From positions 1-40,006 of the forward strand of contig WFRR01000018.1 in assembly GCA_015486375.1 (NCBI GenBank): a DNA stretch of 40,006 nucleotides, written 5' to 3'. Position numbers and translations under genes: made by a program. Positions 6,705-40,006 of the stretch are shown here, piece by piece (within the stretch, counting starts at the first letter, position 1; every line of letters starts with the position of its first letter). The DNA is from Thiotrichaceae bacterium (GTDB lineage Bacteria; Pseudomonadota; Gammaproteobacteria; Thiotrichales; Thiotrichaceae). The notes under the pieces are model-generated. The model searched no databases. It was not told where the DNA came from and saw only the letters and a list, made by a program, of their open reading frames with translations.

Positions 6705-7613
6705 TTATGCCCAAGCTAAACCATCGATATAACGTACAGGAGCAGATTGTTGATCAAACGTAACGATTTCCCATGCCTGTTGATTTAATAGCAGTTCTCG
6801 TACTAATAAATTATTAATCGCATGACCTGATTTATGTCCGTGAAATGCACCAATAATGCCATAGCCTAAGGTGTATAAATCACCGATTGCATCCAGTATT
6901 TTATGTTTTACAAACTCATCTTTATAACGCAAGCCTGAAGGGTTGAGTACTTTATATTCATCTAAAACCACGGCATTATCTAAGCTGCCCCCTAAACCGA
7001 GGTTTTTTGAACGTAGATATTCAACATCACGCATAAAACCAAAGGTACGCGCTCGACTGATTTCATCAACATAAGAGTTATTAGCGAAGTCTAAACAGAG
7101 ATATTGTTGGGTTTCATTAACGATAGGGTGATTGAAATTAATTTCAAAAGAAGCAGAGAAGCCATTATAGGGTTGTAAGCTTGCCCAACTATCGCCTTTT
7201 GAATAAGTGATTTTTTCTTTAATACGAATAAATTTTTTCAGATTGTTTTGTTCTTTAATCCCAGCAGAAAGAATTAAGTAAACAAAGGGAGCAGAGCTAC
7301 CGTCTAAAATAGGAATTTCTTCAGCATTGAGGTCAATATAGATATTATCAATACCTAAACCTGCTAAGGCAGAAAGTAAATGCTCAATGGTTGATACTTT
7401 TACCGTATCTTTGACTAAAGTGGTACTGAGTACCGTTTCACCCACCATTGTCGGCGATACCTTAATTTCTACAGGTTCATCTAAATCTAAGCGATAAAAT
7501 ACAATGCCTGTATTTGCTGCTGCGGGACGCAGACGCATTGAAACTTTTTTTCCAGAATGGAGACCAACACCCGAAGTTTCAATAACTTTTTTTATTGTTC
7601 TTTGTACTAACAA
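6705..7613 (-). CDS. lpxC: UDP-3-O-acyl-N-acetylglucosamine deacetylase LpxC
   Basis: LpxC removes acetate from UDP-3-O-acyl-GlcNAc, the committed step of lipid A synthesis in the cytoplasm. Zinc ligands are visible: the His of STIEHLLSAL and the His and Asp of KHKILDAIGDL. The catalytic region GAFHGHKSGHAIN is complete. I chose the TTG at 7613 as start, because MLVQRTIKK lines up with the start of known LpxC proteins and GGAG lies six bases upstream. A GTG at 7625 in the same frame would add four residues but has its own GGAG inside the coding region. The resulting length of about 302 residues is normal. It follows ftsZ at the end of the dcw cluster. Confidence 0.95.
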   Translation of the reverse strand: MLVQRTIKKVIETSGVGLHSGKKVSMRLRPAAANTGIVFYRLDLDEPVEIKVSPTMVGETVLSTTLVKDTVKVSTIEHLLSALAGLGIDNIYIDLNAEEIPILDGSSAPFVYLILSAGIKEQNNLKKFIRIKEKITYSKGDSWASLQPYNGFSASFEINFNHPIVNETQQYLCLDFANNSYVDEISRARTFGFMRDVEYLRSKNLGLGGSLDNAVVLDEYKVLNPSGLRYKDEFVKHKILDAIGDLYTLGYGIIGAFHGHKSGHAINNLLVRELLLNQQAWEIVTFDQQSAPVRYIDGLAWA

Positions 7614-7724
7614 GTTCAACTCCACAAATAAAAATAAATGGTGTATCTAATATAGGTTTATTTTTTGTAAAAATCTTAGTAACAACTAAATATGTATAAA
7701 GATACAGCAAAACATAATAATCTT

Positions 7725-7750
7725 ATCGTCATCCAATCGGGCATGACGAT
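7725..7750 (-). other. Hairpin between ftsZ and lpxC
   Basis: ATCGTCAT (7725-7732) and ATGACGAT (7743-7750) form a perfect 8-bp stem around a 10-base loop, 40 bases after the ftsZ stop on the minus strand. It could end or stabilise the ftsZ message before lpxC. The T-rich stretch after the stem (ATTATTATGTTTTG) is broken, so it would be a weak terminator. Confidence 0.4.
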
Positions 7751-7789
7751 GATATGAAAGCAGATGTTTTTTTCAGCATATTTAAGCCG

Positions 7790-8977
7790 TTAATCTGCTT
7801 GGTTTCTTAAAAAAGCAGGAATATCTAAAGAATCATATTGGGGCTTATTACTATTACTGGTAGCACCATAGCTACGCTCATTATTGACCACTATATTTTC
7901 AGCACCGACGGCTGTCTTTTGGGCGGGTTCTAATACCACAGGCTTTAAATGTGAACGCGTTTTAGCTCGTTGTTTTTGCTGTGTTTGTGCATTTAAGGTC
8001 TTAGCAAGTTCAATTTCTTCTTCTTCACGTAGACCTGTTGCTACCAGTGTTACCCGAATTTCATCACTCATTTCAGGATCAATAACCGTTCCGACGACTA
8101 CAATGGCATCATCAGACGCAAATTGACGTACGACTTCACCGACTTCGTCAAATTCGTTAATACCCATATCCATACCCGCAGTGATATTAACTAAAACACC
8201 TTGAGCACCCTGAAGATTGACATCTTCTAATAAAGGACTAGAAATGGCTTGTTCTGTGGCTTTTGTGGCACGATCATCACCTGATGCACTGCCTGAACCC
8301 ATCATTGCAACCCCCATATCGGTCATAACAGTTTTCACATCCGCGAAATCCACGTTAATCAAACCAGGGCGAGTAATAAGCTCTGAAATACCTTGTACTG
8401 CATCAAGTAACACATCATTGGCTGCTTTAAAGGCATCTAATAAAGTGACATTCTTACCTAATGAGGTCAGTAATTTTTGGTTAGGAATGGTAATTAAAGA
8501 ATCTACAGAATTACGCAGTTCCTCAATGCCCCCTTTCGCTGAACTCATACGCTTCGGGCCTTCAAATGGAAATGGGGTTGTCACAATAGCAACAGTTAAA
8601 ATACCCAATTCTTTTGCCATTTCTGCGACAACAGGAGCTGCACCCGTGCCTGTACCACCACCCATTCCAGCTGTAATAAAGAGCATATCTGTTCCCAGAA
8701 TAAGTTCTTTAATTCGTTCACGATCTTCTAAAGCCGATTCACGTCCAACTGCAGGGTCTGCCCCCGCACCTAAACCTTTCGTTAAGCTACTGCCTAACTG
8801 CAAAATTGTCTTTACACCTGAAGTTTCAAGTGCTTGTGCATCGGTATTTGCACAAATAAACTCAACGCCTTCAATACCTGCATCGACCATATTCTTGACG
8901 GCATTACCGCCTCCGCCGCCGACACCAACGACCTTGATATCAGCACCTTGTGCTTCATTATCCATTAATTCAAACAT
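7790..8977 (-). CDS. ftsZ: Cell division protein FtsZ
   Basis: FtsZ is the tubulin-like GTPase that forms the Z ring at midcell. The 395-residue protein starts with the glycine-rich [12 protein letters not shown], has the tubulin signature [13 protein letters not shown], and the T7 loop region with NVDFADVK. It then has a variable linker rich in Q, K, N and S, and a C-terminal peptide [14 protein letters not shown], which binds FtsA and ZipA. The start is supported by an AGGAGA-type site (AAAGGAGACAGGC) upstream. It lies 60 bases after ftsA, in the same direction. Confidence 0.99.
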
Positions 8978-28661: not shown

Positions 28662-28742
28662 ATCTACGACATAGAAAACACCCTATACTGTGAGGGTGTC
28701 ATTTATGCTTGTTCCCCCTTTGTGAAGTGATTGAAGATTAAA

Positions 28743-30239
28743 ATGAAAAATGTGCTAAAGATTATATTATTCTCGTTAATGCTTGCTACTTTAACGGCTT
28801 GCTCCTTATCACCCCCCTCTGCAGATTCTGCTTCTGATTCAATCGCAACAAGCTCTTCTGAGGTACGTCGTGCGAATGTTTTACTGCGTCAGGGCAAAAA
28901 ATTAGAAGCCGCTAGCGTGTATTATAAAGCCTCATTAAAGCAAGTCTCTCCCCATAAAGAGCGATTGGTATTACAAGCTGCGGAAATTGCTAGTTCAGCC
29001 AAAGATAAACCGTTAGCAATGCATTATTTATCTAAATTAAGCAATACCCGTTTAAATCAAGAAAATAGTGCGAGACGTTCCTATGTAAAAGCCTTAATTG
29101 CTTTACTCGATAATCATCGTCAAGCCGCTTTAAAATTACTGCCTAAACAACGCGGAGCTATTTCAGGCAATCTATGGAGTAAAATCCAGCGTGTCCGTCA
29201 GCAAATTATTAAACAATCGGGTGGAAGTAACTCTCAAGGCAGTCAAGCTGTTGTCCTGCCAAATAACACACAAAAAATTGCTGTATTACTACCCTTATCA
29301 GGCAAGCTTGGAAAAGTAGGTCATACCATTTTAAAAGGTATTAAAGCCACTAAAACTAATTCTTCTTCAGGTGGCATTCGCATTAAAAGCTATGATGTGG
29401 CCAGTTCTGATGTGGTGACACAATATAAATTAGCGGTTAAACAAGGTGCAGATGTCATTATTGGCCCTTTAGATAAGCGTAAATTAGCCCGTTTAATTAG
29501 CAAACAACCTAATTTATCTCGTCCGATTATCAGTCTCAATCATCTTAGTGCAGGCAATGTCAAAGCCCCCGCTGCCTTGTATCAATTTGGTTTAGCCCCT
29601 GAAGATGAAGCCCATCAGGTGGCCAACTTCGCCATTTCACGTGGACAAAAACGCGCGTTAGTTTTATATCCCGATAGCAGTTGGGGTAAGCGTTTAGGTC
29701 TTGCTTTTAAGCGTATGTATACCAGCAAAGGTGGCACAATATTAACGGAAAAAGCCTACCCTAATCGCAGTGGTAGTTATAAACAGGTTTTAAAAAGGGC
29801 TTTAGATTCTGCTGGCATTACCAATATTGATATGATTTTCCTCGCTGCTGCACCCAGTCAAGCCCGTCTGATTCGTCCGACATTACAATACTTAAAAGCC
29901 GACCGTATTCCTGTTTATGCAACTTCACATATTTATTCAGGTCAACCCAATGCAGGTAGAAATATGGATTTGAACGGTATTATTTATACAGAAATTCCCT
30001 ATATTCTCGAAGGTTCACAAATTGGAGCAGTCAATGCTAGCTCAGGTAAGTATCCTCGCCTTTATGCAATGGGTGCAGATGCCTTTATGATTGCTAAAAA
30101 TCTTAAGAAAATGGTGCAAAGTCGTCGCGCGTTATCTGGTGGAACAGGCATGATTCGTTTAGGTGGTAATCGTTTCTTACAACGTCAATTAAGTTGGGCA
30201 ACCTTTAAGAAAGGTCGCACCACTCCTTACGGCGAATAA
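28743..30239 (+). CDS. lpoA: LppC/LpoA family outer membrane lipoprotein
   Basis: LpoA proteins are anchored in the outer membrane and reach through the wall to activate the transpeptidase of PBP1a. The 498-residue protein begins with a lipoprotein signal (LTAC, Cys 20). A helical TPR-like region follows (about 40-150), then a periplasmic-binding-protein fold starting at IAVLLPLSGKLGKVGHTILKG and including GADVIIGPLDKRKLARL and ALVLYPDSSWGKRLG. E. coli LpoA has 678 residues, so the N-terminal domain here is much shorter. I chose the ATG at 28743; a TTG four codons upstream is possible. The order lpoA-yraN-SIS gene after a divergent rsmI is the conserved one. A PBP-like protein is encoded about 7 kb further on. 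Confidence 0.93.
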   Translation: MKNVLKIILFSLMLATLTACSLSPPSADSASDSIATSSSEVRRANVLLRQGKKLEAASVYYKASLKQVSPHKERLVLQAAEIASSAKDKPLAMHYLSKLSNTRLNQENSARRSYVKALIALLDNHRQAALKLLPKQRGAISGNLWSKIQRVRQQIIKQSGGSNSQGSQAVVLPNNTQKIAVLLPLSGKLGKVGHTILKGIKATKTNSSSGGIRIKSYDVASSDVVTQYKLAVKQGADVIIGPLDKRKLARLISKQPNLSRPIISLNHLSAGNVKAPAALYQFGLAPEDEAHQVANFAISRGQKRALVLYPDSSWGKRLGLAFKRMYTSKGGTILTEKAYPNRSGSYKQVLKRALDSAGITNIDMIFLAAAPSQARLIRPTLQYLKADRIPVYATSHIYSGQPNAGRNMDLNGIIYTEIPYILEGSQIGAVNASSGKYPRLYAMGADAFMIAKNLKKMVQSRRALSGGTGMIRLGGNRFLQRQLSWATFKKGRTTPYGE

Positions 30240-35239: not shown

Positions 35240-35455
35240 CACTGCTTAATTTATGATATTTTTAAACTGACACTAAGCTTTATTTTTGCACGTTATTTGT
35301 ATGAGACTTATATAATGAAATGGATTAAGAATAAGAAAATATCATGATTTTATAGGTAAATCTAAATTTAGTATGACAAGCTTGCTAAGCATGAAAAATT
35401 ATCGATAAGCTTATAGGATTAAACACTATTAATCATTAAGTAGTGGGAGGTTCTT
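35240..35455 (+). promoter_or_regulatory. Upstream region and probable promoter of the PBP module
   Basis: This stretch separates the minus-strand mtnP unit from the plus-strand membrane protein gene. It contains TTGCAC (35286-35291), a 17-base spacer and TATATA (35309-35314), overlapping a perfect TATAAT (35311-35316) at spacer 19. This would give a leader of about 130 bases that ends in a strong ribosome binding site GGGAGG (35445-35450). Small inverted repeats occur in the leader (AAGCTTGCTAAGC, and ATAAGCTTAT-like near 35405-35415), but no known riboswitch is recognised. Confidence 0.5.
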
Positions 35456-37021
35456 TTGAAAAAGTTAGGTTCTATTTACCAACGTATTCTTGTCTCAGAT
35501 CGTGCTTACTGGCTCAATACATTGATTATTATTGCACTGTCTATTTTATCTTTTTATACCACCTTTGATGGTTTCAGTCGTTATATCTTAGTCGAAGATC
35601 AAACAGCAACAGGCTTTGAAATTATATTTTTAATTATAGTGGTTGCGATTATTCAACTATTATTAATCGTGTCATTAAGTAATTTGATTCGTTATAAAAC
35701 ATGGAATGGGCGATCTATTTGGATTGCATTATATATAATAACCATGTTAGTCAGTGTATTTTTTTCTTATAGCTTTTACTACAAATTAATGCAAGCAGAT
35801 AGCTATGCTCAGAAAAACTTTAGTATTCAACTAAATCAATCCTTGCTCAATGCTCAAAATTACCAATCTAGTTTTATGGAAGTGACTGAAACCGTCAAAC
35901 TTTTATCGAGCTATTCCCAAGAAACAGCAAAAAGGGAACGATTAAAAGGCGGAACGTGCGGTGATCATTCTCCCGCAGGTTCAGGTCCTCGCAGAGATTT
36001 ACGTGAAGAAGAAGCGGAGCTATTTACACAACTAAGTGAAACAACAACCCAACTATCAACTAAATTAGTGGGAGAAATGCAAGCACTTAATGATATTAAG
36101 GCTCGTTATTCAACTGAAAAAAATAATACAGCAACGATTCAACAGGAAATGAATACGGTGATTAATCGTATTAATCATCAACGTAATACAGCTGCGATTA
36201 AACAATTAAAACAAATTTTACAACAACATATGGGAGAAGCTCGACAAAATTTATGGGTAGAAATACGTCAAACTAAAATTAGTTGTCCTGATCAACGTAT
36301 TTCACAGTCGGTTAAAGGTTTACTATTGGGTTTAAATGACTTACCTATTTTAGATGAAATTGTACTATTTGATTCAAATGATGATAAGGCAATTATGGCA
36401 AGAGCCATGCATGTTTTTATCAATATTCCCAGCATCATTTATAATGCTTTACTACCTTTGGCACAAGCAGATGCTCAAAAAGATAATAGTAAAAATAAAG
36501 TTAATGCCAATGAAATTAGCAATGCTGATATTAGCCCCTTTATTTTAGGTAGCATGGTAGATGCTATTATATTTTTAATTGGATTTAGCAATGCCAAAAA
36601 ATCACAGCAGCGTAATTATTTAAATGGTCGTTATGCAGGTGAGTTTTTTTCTACTCGTGATATTGTAAGAATACAATCTGCCTTTAATATTCGTGACTTG
36701 CGGAAAATTTTACGCCTACATTTATACAATACAAAAAGCGAACGCTATTTTATTATTCCGTCAGAAGTGTATGTACAATTACCTCATAGTAATGCGTTGA
36801 TTAACCTATTTGAGTCCTTAGTGAGTGCAAATCGTATTGCTAAACCCAAACATAGCCATATTCCTTTAGATGTTATTGCAGAAAGCGTTAAAGATAGATT
36901 AGCCCCCTATTTTATTAATCATAGTGCGCGACCCTTGTTTAATTATTATCCAATTAAAGAAGATAGTTGGAACGACTTAGTACAGTCACTTAACGCTTAC
37001 TCCATGTGGAATCAAAAGTAA
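35456..37021 (+). CDS. Membrane protein with periplasmic coiled-coil domain, partner of divergent PBP
   Basis: I do not recognise a family for this 521-residue protein. It has three hydrophobic helices near the N-terminus (about 19-36, 54-76, 87-108), a long helical/coiled-coil region (about 110-350, rich in Q, E, K, N), a fourth helix (about 360-378) and a soluble C-terminal domain (380-521). With the N-terminus inside, the coiled-coil part would be periplasmic and the C-terminal domain cytoplasmic. In the periplasmic part a compact motif, GGTCGDHSPAGSGPRRDLR (165-183), breaks the coil. Only two cysteines exist, C168 in that motif and C277, and could form a disulfide. The start TTG at 35456 has GGGAGG five bases upstream. 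The stop overlaps the next start (TAATG), so the two proteins are probably made together and act together. Confidence 0.85.
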   Translation: MKKLGSIYQRILVSDRAYWLNTLIIIALSILSFYTTFDGFSRYILVEDQTATGFEIIFLIIVVAIIQLLLIVSLSNLIRYKTWNGRSIWIALYIITMLVSVFFSYSFYYKLMQADSYAQKNFSIQLNQSLLNAQNYQSSFMEVTETVKLLSSYSQETAKRERLKGGTCGDHSPAGSGPRRDLREEEAELFTQLSETTTQLSTKLVGEMQALNDIKARYSTEKNNTATIQQEMNTVINRINHQRNTAAIKQLKQILQQHMGEARQNLWVEIRQTKISCPDQRISQSVKGLLLGLNDLPILDEIVLFDSNDDKAIMARAMHVFINIPSIIYNALLPLAQADAQKDNSKNKVNANEISNADISPFILGSMVDAIIFLIGFSNAKKSQQRNYLNGRYAGEFFSTRDIVRIQSAFNIRDLRKILRLHLYNTKSERYFIIPSEVYVQLPHSNALINLFESLVSANRIAKPKHSHIPLDVIAESVKDRLAPYFINHSARPLFNYYPIKEDSWNDLVQSLNAYSMWNQK

Positions 37022-39531
37022 TGAATCCTATCAAAGCAGCACAATACTTTTATAATAAACAATTACGTCAAGATAGCTTGAGACTCCGATTACATAATTT
37101 AGGCCTATATAACTTAAAAAATGATTTAAAAGGGCATCGTGATAATTTACGTGAAATAATTTTTAATTCAAAGAAAAGGAATTTTAAATCTTTGGCAAAA
37201 TCATTACTGCGCTTACCGATTGTTATCGTCGAACTATTAATCTTGGGAGTCTTATTTTGGTTAGAGTTTATTTTTAAAAGTTTGCCAAGATTCTTTTTCA
37301 GTTTACTACCCTATTCACTATCGGGCTGGATGAAATTTATTGTAATAATGGGTGTTATTACACTTGTTGTCTCTGCGAGTAGCTTATTTTTCTATCTATC
37401 TAAAGAACCTGATCCTAAAATATTACAAGACTATATTAAGCTACACCATTATCGAACCGCTGTTGCATTACGAGATCGACAAGGGCATCTAATTGGTGCA
37501 TTAGCGAGTCCCAATTCACCACCTGATCAATACTTTAGTCATGAACAACGTCAAGGAGCATTATATGTTGAGCATGTTCCTGATGTATTTTGGGATGTAT
37601 TGATTACTCGTGAAGATCGTGATTTAGACTTTAAGTATCAAAACACACATTTGATGGAGATTTTATTGGGACAACGCAACTCTTATAAAGGAATTAACTT
37701 TGCTGCTTTGTTTAAACGCCCCATTCAAAGTAAGCTCAAAGGTAATAATATAGCAGGTGGAAGTGCATTAATTAATTTAATTATCAAGAACTTATATGGG
37801 GTTCGTTATTTTAATGAACAATATTCATCTAATCATTTATGGTCTAAATTACAACGTAAAAAAGAAGAAATTAAAGGCGCAAGAAATTTGTTTCCTTACC
37901 TCGCAAAACATAATGGTTTAGAATTTAAACGTTGGATTGCAATGCACGCCCCCTTACTTTCAGCAGGGGATGATGTCTATGGTATTCGTTCGGCATCCGC
38001 CACTTTGTTTGGTAAACGTCCAAAAGAATTAAGTGCGGCAGAACAATCAATATTGGCGGCAGCATATCATCGAGGGGTACGTTTTCAACCATTATCCGCA
38101 GATGAACGTGAACCTTTACAACAAGCCCGTTTTAAGCGTTGGCAATTACTGATCAAGAAAGCGAAGAAAGGGGTTAGAAATGCTTATCAAACCTCTCAGC
38201 CTGAAAAGATGAATAGGATTTTGGCGGATTTGGAGCAAATGCAAACCCCTCAAATGCCTAAAGTACCGAGCAGTTTACAAAGCTTATTAAATGATCAAAC
38301 TTTCACACAAAGACAGAAATACGGTAATTTAAAACAGCGCACTGACTTATTAATCAGTAGCTTAAAGCCTCGTATTAGTCAGCGTTTAAAGCAAGAAAAT
38401 CAAAAATTAAATCGCTTAGACTCTTATCACCAAGTGATTACTGATATTAAAATTAGTTTACCTGTTGGAAAGAACTATCAGTTTAAAAAACAGTTAGATC
38501 AAACCTTTGCTCAAATAATGCGTTATTGCCCTCATTGCTATAGCAAGAATATTGGGCGACCTGTGAATACAGAAAGTAATGGGGCGTTGGTACGAATTGT
38601 CGTTGCTAATAGTAAAGGTGAAATTGTGCGCTATTATCGTCGAGGTTATGTCCAACGTCGTCCTATTGCCAGTATTAGTAAAATTCCTATTGCTGTTTTA
38701 TTGGCGAGTCATAACGTCAAAATAGCGCAAAAATTTTGTAATAAAGCTTATCAAGGCAGAAAAAATGCTTCAGGTTTATACCTTAAAGGGGTTCAAAATT
38801 GTAATACACCCAAAAAATCAGGGCATAGTTATACCTTTAAAGACAGTATGGCTCAATCTAAAAACTTACCTTTATTTTATGCACTAACAGAGTTAGAACA
38901 ATTTTCACTAGCGCAATTATCCAATCTTTATAAGGACTTTGGTTTAGATGATAGTGCAAGCCTAAGAGGTAATACCCCCACGATTAAACAGCTTGCATTT
39001 GAATTGGCATTCGGTTTAGCTGAAGCGACACCTGAACAAACGCATCGTATGATACAAACATTAACCCAACAGTTGTATCGCCCTACATTACGCGATCAGC
39101 CACATGTGATTCAATCATTACGCATTAGTAAATACCATGAAGATAGTAAGCAAGCCACGGTTCGCAAGCAATATCTAAAAAACCCTAATATGCTCTATTA
39201 TAATATTGCCGCTTATTTAAACAATGAGACAGTTAAGGAAACTTTAAGAAAGATATTTGTTTCCCCTGTAAAAGAGAGTAAAGGTACACTGCACAGCTTT
39301 AATAAAATTGCTAATGTGAATTTTTTATTAGCTAAATCAGGAACATCTGAAACACCATCAAGTAAAACAAGAGATAAATCGGCAATAGGCAGTTTTGAAA
39401 TTCATGGCAATATTTATACCTTCTCTATTTTTATTGGTACGGATGATTTAGAACAAGGTTTAGGTTCTCGTGTCACACATCAACGACTGATTACACCCAT
39501 TATGAAAACCATTGTGAAAAGCTTACTTTAA
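37021..39531 (+). CDS. Divergent class A penicillin-binding protein (GT51-like plus transpeptidase)
   Basis: The 836-residue protein has a soluble basic N-terminus, two hydrophobic segments (about 63-85, 104-125), a GT51-like domain (about 180-385), a helical linker and a transpeptidase domain (about 520-836). The transpeptidase motifs are complete: SISK (551-554), SKN (613-615), KSGT (772-775). In the glycosyltransferase part the glutamate of EDR (E198), GGS (246-248), IIKN (254-257), RKKEE (279-283) and the YGIRSASATLFGKRPKELSAAEQ block are kept, but the usual TITQQ reads ALINL and the ExYLN block is lost. Four cysteines lie in the outer part: CPHC (503-506), C573, C594. The ATG at 37021 overlaps the stop of the preceding gene. 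It could be a working bifunctional synthase or one with only transpeptidase activity. Confidence 0.85.
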   Translation: MNPIKAAQYFYNKQLRQDSLRLRLHNLGLYNLKNDLKGHRDNLREIIFNSKKRNFKSLAKSLLRLPIVIVELLILGVLFWLEFIFKSLPRFFFSLLPYSLSGWMKFIVIMGVITLVVSASSLFFYLSKEPDPKILQDYIKLHHYRTAVALRDRQGHLIGALASPNSPPDQYFSHEQRQGALYVEHVPDVFWDVLITREDRDLDFKYQNTHLMEILLGQRNSYKGINFAALFKRPIQSKLKGNNIAGGSALINLIIKNLYGVRYFNEQYSSNHLWSKLQRKKEEIKGARNLFPYLAKHNGLEFKRWIAMHAPLLSAGDDVYGIRSASATLFGKRPKELSAAEQSILAAAYHRGVRFQPLSADEREPLQQARFKRWQLLIKKAKKGVRNAYQTSQPEKMNRILADLEQMQTPQMPKVPSSLQSLLNDQTFTQRQKYGNLKQRTDLLISSLKPRISQRLKQENQKLNRLDSYHQVITDIKISLPVGKNYQFKKQLDQTFAQIMRYCPHCYSKNIGRPVNTESNGALVRIVVANSKGEIVRYYRRGYVQRRPIASISKIPIAVLLASHNVKIAQKFCNKAYQGRKNASGLYLKGVQNCNTPKKSGHSYTFKDSMAQSKNLPLFYALTELEQFSLAQLSNLYKDFGLDDSASLRGNTPTIKQLAFELAFGLAEATPEQTHRMIQTLTQQLYRPTLRDQPHVIQSLRISKYHEDSKQATVRKQYLKNPNMLYYNIAAYLNNETVKETLRKIFVSPVKESKGTLHSFNKIANVNFLLAKSGTSETPSSKTRDKSAIGSFEIHGNIYTFSIFIGTDDLEQGLGSRVTHQRLITPIMKTIVKSLL

Positions 39532-39781
39532 TACTGGCTTGATGGTGTAAATGACTTTGATAGCGTTCGTATTTCAGCCGTTCGGGATCGTGCATCTTTA
39601 AATAATCCAATTCTTGTTTCGCTTTTTCCAAGCCTTTGGCTTTAAAATTGTCTTTAATTTCTTCATTTTTAAGAAAGTAAATCCATTCATCAAGACTATC
39701 TTTAGCAATATCATCAAAGTCTTTAACTTTGATTAAATAATATTCAGGGTATAGGGTGCAATTTTTTGTTTTAACTGTCAA
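39500..39781 (-). pseudogene. C-terminal remnant of an Rpn/PD-(D/E)XK nuclease-transposase gene
   Basis: The frame holds a well-known tail of Rpn-family recombination-promoting nucleases/putative transposases: LYPEYYLIKVKDFDDIAKDSL, then LDEWIYFLKNEEIKDNFKAKG and LEKAKQELDYLKMHDPERLKYERY. The catalytic N-terminal half is missing: the match stops at the 26-bp repeat (39757-39782). The other end is also cut, since after HHQASI the frame runs into the end of the PBP gene (positions below 39532) and reads unrelated residues. It is a remnant, not a working gene. Confidence 0.8.
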
Positions 39782-39782
39782 G
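39757..39782. repeat. 26-bp repeat, copy 2
   Basis: Identical over 26 bases and in the same direction as 35214-35239. It marks the exact place where similarity of the Rpn remnant to its family ends, so it looks like a junction left by insertion or recombination. On both sides the sequence differs from copy 1. Confidence 0.8.
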
Positions 39783-39806
39783 TAGCTGACTGTCTTTTAA
39801 TGCCTG

Positions 39807-40006
39807 TCACTCTCTTTCTACGGTTAAAATTTCTTTTACCTTATCCACCTCGACCTCTGAAATCGCTGCTATCTCTTGTGCATTAAAGCCTTTTTCCGCC
39901 AATCTTAAAATAATTTTGCGTTTTTCTTCCTGTAATTGTAATCGACTACTCTCTTTTTCTTGTTCTATACCTTGCTCTATACCTTGCTCTATTCCCTGTT
40001 CTATAC
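39807..40006 (-). CDS. C-terminal part of an Rpn/DUF2887-like nuclease-family protein (partial)
   Basis: A minus-strand frame runs off the right edge and stops with TGA at 39807-39809. The visible 65 residues start with four units of the tetrapeptide IEQG (the last IEQE), coded by 12-base repeats at 39960-40004. Then comes a charged helix (KESSRLQLQEEKRKIILRLA) and a small helix-turn-helix-like end, EKGFNAQEIAAISEVEVDKV. Such tails with (G)IEQG repeats are common at the C-terminus of Rpn-type and DUF2887/DUF4351 proteins. It may be an intact gene of this type; its body lies outside the window. Confidence 0.75.
   Translation of the reverse strand, partial: IEQGIEQGIEQGIEQEKESSRLQLQEEKRKIILRLAEKGFNAQEIAAISEVEVDKVKEILTVERE

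Follow-up and report, generated by a model that had tools for sequence, protein, structure and literature searches.

A conserved gene pair encoding a divergent class A penicillin-binding protein and an unnamed inner-membrane protein in Thiotrichaceae

In a draft genome of a Thiotrichaceae bacterium (assembly GCA_015486375.1; 2.67 Mb in 175 contigs), the first 40,006 nucleotides of contig WFRR01000018.1, the whole stretch analyzed and hereafter called the window, harbor two adjoining genes for an inner-membrane protein of an unnamed family, P0001, and a divergent class A penicillin-binding protein (PBP), P0002. The two genes constitute a genuine, conserved unit. We favor, with a probability of roughly 0.55, the reading that P0001 is the dedicated inner-membrane partner of P0002, with which it would interact physically, and that their conserved task is structural or regulatory rather than catalytic. 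Since catalysis has been lost repeatedly while the pair has stayed, its shared function most likely consists in acting on other synthases.

The first gene (35456..37021, forward strand, as are the second gene and the features mapped within the two) is an open reading frame of 521 codons represented in family alignments A2, A4, and A8. It starts with TTG, and a Shine-Dalgarno-like GGGAGG (35445..35450) can be read 5 nt upstream of this codon. The second (37021..39531) starts with ATG and encodes the 836-residue P0002. As stated in a preliminary description of this DNA, the two form a unit with a TAATG junction, in which one base is common to the TAA stop and the ATG start. Besides P0002, the genome encodes two canonical class A PBPs and a short GT51 protein.

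Recurrence of the pair and loss of catalytic residues

The pair was sought in 63 genomes of the order and in samples of 369 genomes of the class and 398 of the phylum. In the order, relatives of P0001 were found in 27 of the 63 genomes and the pair-type PBP in 14, and wider searches brought the records with this PBP subfamily to 21 in total. The P0001 gene adjoins the PBP gene in 15 of the 16 records whose contigs allow a clear answer, namely the window and, under our own handles, G004, G007, G013, G025, G028, G029, G030, G031, G037, L111, L112, G252, G661, and G664; contig ends placed G023, G027, G033, and G094 outside this count. G020 is a probable further case, as a 90-residue frame that precedes its PBP at a contig end clusters with P0001 tails, with no confirmation from the profile. 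Adjacency is seen not only in Thiotrichaceae but also in a second gammaproteobacterial family and in two genomes from other classes. The preliminary description had asked whether the pair co-occurs in the same order across genomes, and would have been refuted by genes that are never neighbors elsewhere. It passes this test, as adjacency recurs; the order is P0001-PBP in the Thiotrichaceae and G661 and reversed in G252 and G664.

The PBP subfamily was present in four genomes of the class sample, all among the seven with P0001, and in four of the phylum sample, all among the five with P0001; none of the sampled genomes had this PBP without a P0001 relative. When canonical PBPs of the same genomes are included in a tree, the pair-associated PBPs all fall into a single group on a long stem, with a Shimodaira-Hasegawa-like approximate likelihood ratio support of 100; the inner branching of this group is unsure because G252 and G661 have long branches. 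Other GT51 proteins occur in nine of nine genomes examined. The named relatives of P0001 belong to Thiotrichaceae-type genomes (Leucothrix, Cocleimonas, a Thiothrix nivea metagenome-assembled genome, and Thiomargarita), and a search of named genomes with a single PBP sequence gave no matches.

Catalytic residues were compared among 15 Thiotrichaceae orthologues of the PBP, the window protein included. Full SxxK and SxN motifs of the transpeptidase are found in the window protein, G027, G037, Thiomargarita, and L112. In G004 and G007, the transpeptidase lysine is replaced by methionine and the asparagine by serine, and in eight of the 15 orthologues (G013, G020, G023, G025, and four Leucothrix-type proteins) the serine, the lysine, and the SxN motif have all gone, together with both GT51 glutamates. 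The lysine is thus missing from 10/15 and the nucleophilic serine from 8/15; two cysteines, C573 and C594, are kept in all 15. Complete transpeptidase motifs, noted for the window protein in the preliminary description, do not characterize the module, since they are gone from the majority of its Thiotrichaceae orthologues. Among the distant relatives, SxxK and KTG/KSG are retained in G252, G661, G664, and G788; the asparagine of SxN is missing from G664, and G252 has an aspartate at the second GT51 glutamate.

Pseudogene decay was considered for the eight catalytic-loss PBPs and rejected. Their reading frames are intact over 660-804 residues, the shorter ones lying at contig ends, and the ratio of nonsynonymous to synonymous substitution rates (dN/dS) comes to about 0.11-0.13 in two catalytic-loss pairs, which points to purifying selection; dS was saturated in the others. 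These proteins are, judging from their sequences, maintained pseudo-enzymes and not decaying genes. Searches of the literature yielded no direct report of inactive class A PBPs or of a P0001-PBP module in Thiotrichaceae.

Architecture of the two proteins and known counterparts

P0002 combines a GT51 domain (37543..38121; Transgly PF00912, E 1.8e-10, 41 bits against a cut-off of 27) with a transpeptidase domain (38629..39447; Transpeptidase PF00905, E 1.9e-8, 34.3 bits against 22.1) that includes C573 and C594. The motifs SISK (residues 551-554, 38671-38682), SKN (613-615, 38857-38865), and KSGT (772-775, 39334-39345) are complete, in agreement with the earlier claim for this protein, and in the window organism P0002 could well act as a transpeptidase. 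The GT51 domain is as strongly changed as had been described: an insert of about 20 residues after the first glutamate replaces F..H.G of motif I, motif II lacks QQ, and motif IV is replaced by FPYLA..G.EFKRW.AMH. Both catalytic glutamates are still present, since E198 (37612-37614) and E283 (37867-37869) align with E233 and E290 of Escherichia coli PBP1B. Hydropathy places the two N-terminal hydrophobic segments, also anticipated, at residues 67-85 and 106-124 (37219..37392); several relatives likewise have two, against one in E. coli PBP1A and PBP1B. The NCBIfam equivalogs for PBP1A, PBP1B, and PBP1C gave at best 38.2 bits, below the cut-off of 508.75, and a match of P0002 to ZorA was weak (E 0.1).

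For P0001, the AlphaFold2 model (mean predicted local distance difference test score, pLDDT, of 81.8) has helices at residues 16-44, 53-79, 83-163, and 356-389, in agreement with hydropathy. Three membrane helices are thus predicted within residues 16-110 (35501..35785), the third of which (83-110) continues as a long helix up to residue 163, and a fourth at residues 356-389 (36521..36622). The charges of the loops fit an inside N-terminus, so the intervening domain of about 245 residues (111-355; 35786..36520) would be periplasmic, and a small α/β domain (390-521; 36623..37018), defined by predicted secondary structure, would be cytoplasmic. A periplasmic coiled coil of about 240 residues had been proposed: the helical nature and size of the domain hold, AlphaFold2 predicts a helical bundle instead, and the sidedness is deduced from topology. 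S154, E161, G165, C168, G177, and D279 are invariant in the family, including relatives from other classes. The relatives share a GGTC..G.GP....R pattern. C168 (35957..35959) lies within the signature E...GGTCG.....G.GPR...R and is invariant in A2, A4, and A8; C277 (36284..36286), in a CPD motif, is invariant in A2 and more than 90% conserved in A4 and A8. Nearly all relatives have these two cysteines, and many hold just these two, 102-124 residues apart; a C168-C277 disulfide that ties the helical bundle would be the simple reading of this pattern.

The four-helix protein had been called unplaceable, which is borne out. Neither P0001 nor its relatives gave a significant match in Pfam, NCBIfam, PADLOC, or PDB sequences, and a Foldseek search of the PDB returned generic helical bundles only (best E 0.017), with a weak, non-significant structural likeness between the helical part and the sensor domain of TorS (E 0.08). 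A chemoreceptor or transporter, which the preliminary description had named as possible contrary outcomes, is matched neither by family hidden Markov models nor by significant PDB hits. DUF4407 proteins have a similar layout, and weak coiled-coil matches were seen in distant relatives; profile comparison led to rejection of this candidate, with no match to the PF14362 model and an hhalign probability of at most 0.4% against three DUF4407 proteins. A defense protein of the Zorya type was ruled out as well, with no PADLOC match. By profile (96.8%), a two-member family of 423-428-residue membrane proteins without the cysteines, in other gammaproteobacteria (G197 and G310; L123:8334-9605, L124:8590-9876), is a distant relative of P0001.

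Like PBP1A, PBP1B, and PBP1C, P0002 carries GT51 and transpeptidase domains on an N-terminal membrane anchor, with catalytic residues present. It differs from them by its separate long-stem clade, its rebuilt GT51 domain, its two hydrophobic segments, and the catalytic losses in sister lineages. The known essential cofactors of E. coli class A PBPs are outer-membrane lipoproteins (PMC10216114). What P0001 would share with LpoA and LpoB is its dedication to a class A PBP and a periplasmic site of action. In contrast, it has no N-terminal lipobox (its first cysteine is residue 168), no PF04348 match, and four membrane helices, and the true LpoA homologue of the window is a separate gene. An inner-membrane partner had been regarded as a different design, which is too strong in view of Gram-positive and actinobacterial precedents: MacP is thought to alter the transmembrane-polymerase interface of PBP2a (PMC10746261), CozEb is found in complex with PBP1a (PMC7593971), and CofA binds the transmembrane domain of PBP1a (PMC7205459). 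These are also membrane proteins that control or stabilize a class A PBP; compared by description only, P0001 differs in its large periplasmic helical domain, its two conserved cysteines, and the joining of its gene to that of the PBP. The pbpC-yfhM pair likewise encodes a class A PBP beside a dedicated partner, which is there a large α2-macroglobulin and not a helical membrane protein, and P0002 falls below the PBP1C equivalog cut-off. What is new is the unnamed partner family and the pseudo-enzyme branch, the overall design having precedent.

Genomic surroundings

An LpoA homologue had been reported near the pair. It is real (28731-30239; PF04348, E 1e-58), but lies 5.2 kb away and adjoins rsmI-, yraN-, and diaA-like genes. 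Such a neighborhood is usual in gammaproteobacteria, and the proximity of the LpoA gene to the pair therefore says little. In G023 (L039:1-3147), a relative of this gene is convergent with and adjoins the pair PBP. Downstream of the P0002 gene, window positions 39500-40006 hold a PD-(D/E)XK transposase-like fragment (PF12784, weak) and repeated TATACCTTGCTC units.

In Leucothrix-type genomes (L051:6764-9659, L052, L053, L055, and L057), genes for a BON/OmpA protein and a DUF4332 coiled-coil protein follow the pair. Near the solo P0001 paralogues of L064 and L069, too, there are BON/OmpA genes. A distant P0001 relative with the same cysteine signature is found in G029 (contig C1, L081:419-8877; gene at 7312-8877), behind SrfC-like (PF10139) and SrfB-like (PF07520) genes and one for a 415-residue membrane protein, which places the family in an SrfABC-like setting too. 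A SrfB search in the window genome gave no match, and its control gave no signal either.

Proposed function and significance

P0001 and P0002 would thus act as dedicated partners at the inner membrane, probably in a physical complex. P0001 would place its helical domain, tied by a disulfide, on the periplasmic side and its small domain on the cytoplasmic side, and the membrane helices together with the region of the GT51 domain and the helical bundle would be the likely interface. The pair would position or allosterically tune peptidoglycan synthesis, probably that by the canonical PBPs present in every genome tested. Catalysis by P0002 itself would be optional: it is plausible in the window organism, Thiomargarita, and the majority of distant relatives, whereas Leucothrix and a number of further Thiotrichaceae no longer have it. 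A more specific proposal is put forward tentatively, namely a complex whose essential role is non-catalytic, derived from an ancestral synthase-partner unit, in which the PBP lost its transglycosylase and transpeptidase sites in several lineages and became a pseudo-synthase scaffold with the disulfide-tied periplasmic bundle as its partner.

Several points weigh against the favored reading of a dedicated partnership. In G788 the two genes are both present on different contigs. Solo P0001 paralogues are found in about 11 Thiotrichaceae genomes devoid of the pair-type PBP, several of them downstream of sppA or glyQS; those in L065, L066, L068, L072, L074, and L075, from genomes that often lack this PBP, stand downstream of rluC-HAD-sppA or of glyQS. 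The family thus extends beyond partners of the PBP, and its members can work without it. The class and phylum scans call for caution, as most of the distant PBPs they detected had also trained the profile, G094 being the sole untrained match, and as the distant PBPs had initially been recognized as neighbors of P0001. Finally, the AlphaFold2 model of P0002 (pLDDT 58.6) was too poor for use.

The best surviving alternative, which we nevertheless hold to be rather unlikely, is the idea of the preliminary description that P0001 is an inner-membrane counterpart of LpoA/LpoB or MacP, which would contact an active peptidoglycan synthase close to its membrane helix and GT51 domain and switch polymerization on. 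Activation at a transmembrane-polymerase interface has a precedent in MacP (PMC10746261), the window, G027, G037, Thiomargarita, G252, G661, and G788 have an intact transpeptidase triad, and GT51 glutamates have been retained by the window, Thiomargarita, G037, G664, and G661. Leucothrix and its relatives, in contrast, keep the pair though neither active site remains, and the window GT51 domain itself lacks the usual motif II glutamines and the F..H of motif I. The joint role suggested in the preliminary description is supported by the co-occurrence of the genes, but activation of the synthase by its partner cannot be its general form because most Thiotrichaceae orthologues have lost the transpeptidase motifs.

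It is improbable that P0001 serves as an envelope or sensor protein of general use in several settings, P0002 being one client among others, their linkage reflecting co-regulation and not a complex. The solo paralogues beside sppA or glyQS, the distant relative behind SrfB/SrfC-like genes, and the non-significant TorS resemblance are in keeping with such a role, whereas the occurrence of both gene orders and the presence in distant lineages speak against mere shared regulation, and most PBP-linked Thiotrichaceae P0001 sequences separate from the solo ones on the tree. That the PBP senses β-lactams or lipid II, for instance, and signals through P0001 to its predicted cytoplasmic domain, in the manner of PBP-like sensors such as BlaR1/MecR1, is highly improbable, since covalent β-lactam sensing cannot be a shared function of orthologues many of which lack the serine or lysine, and no regulator gene is linked to the pair.

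Among the main targets of antibiotics are class A PBPs, whose control in Gram-negative bacteria is known mostly through the outer-membrane Lpo lipoproteins. If a structural or regulatory partnership is correct, an inner-membrane partner that is conserved and encoded together with a PBP subfamily of its own would represent a second mode of control. The lineages that have neither active site and still carry the pair would offer a natural experiment separating the structural from the catalytic roles of these proteins. Many of the carriers are filamentous or giant sulfur bacteria of unusual cell shape, in which wall growth has been little studied.

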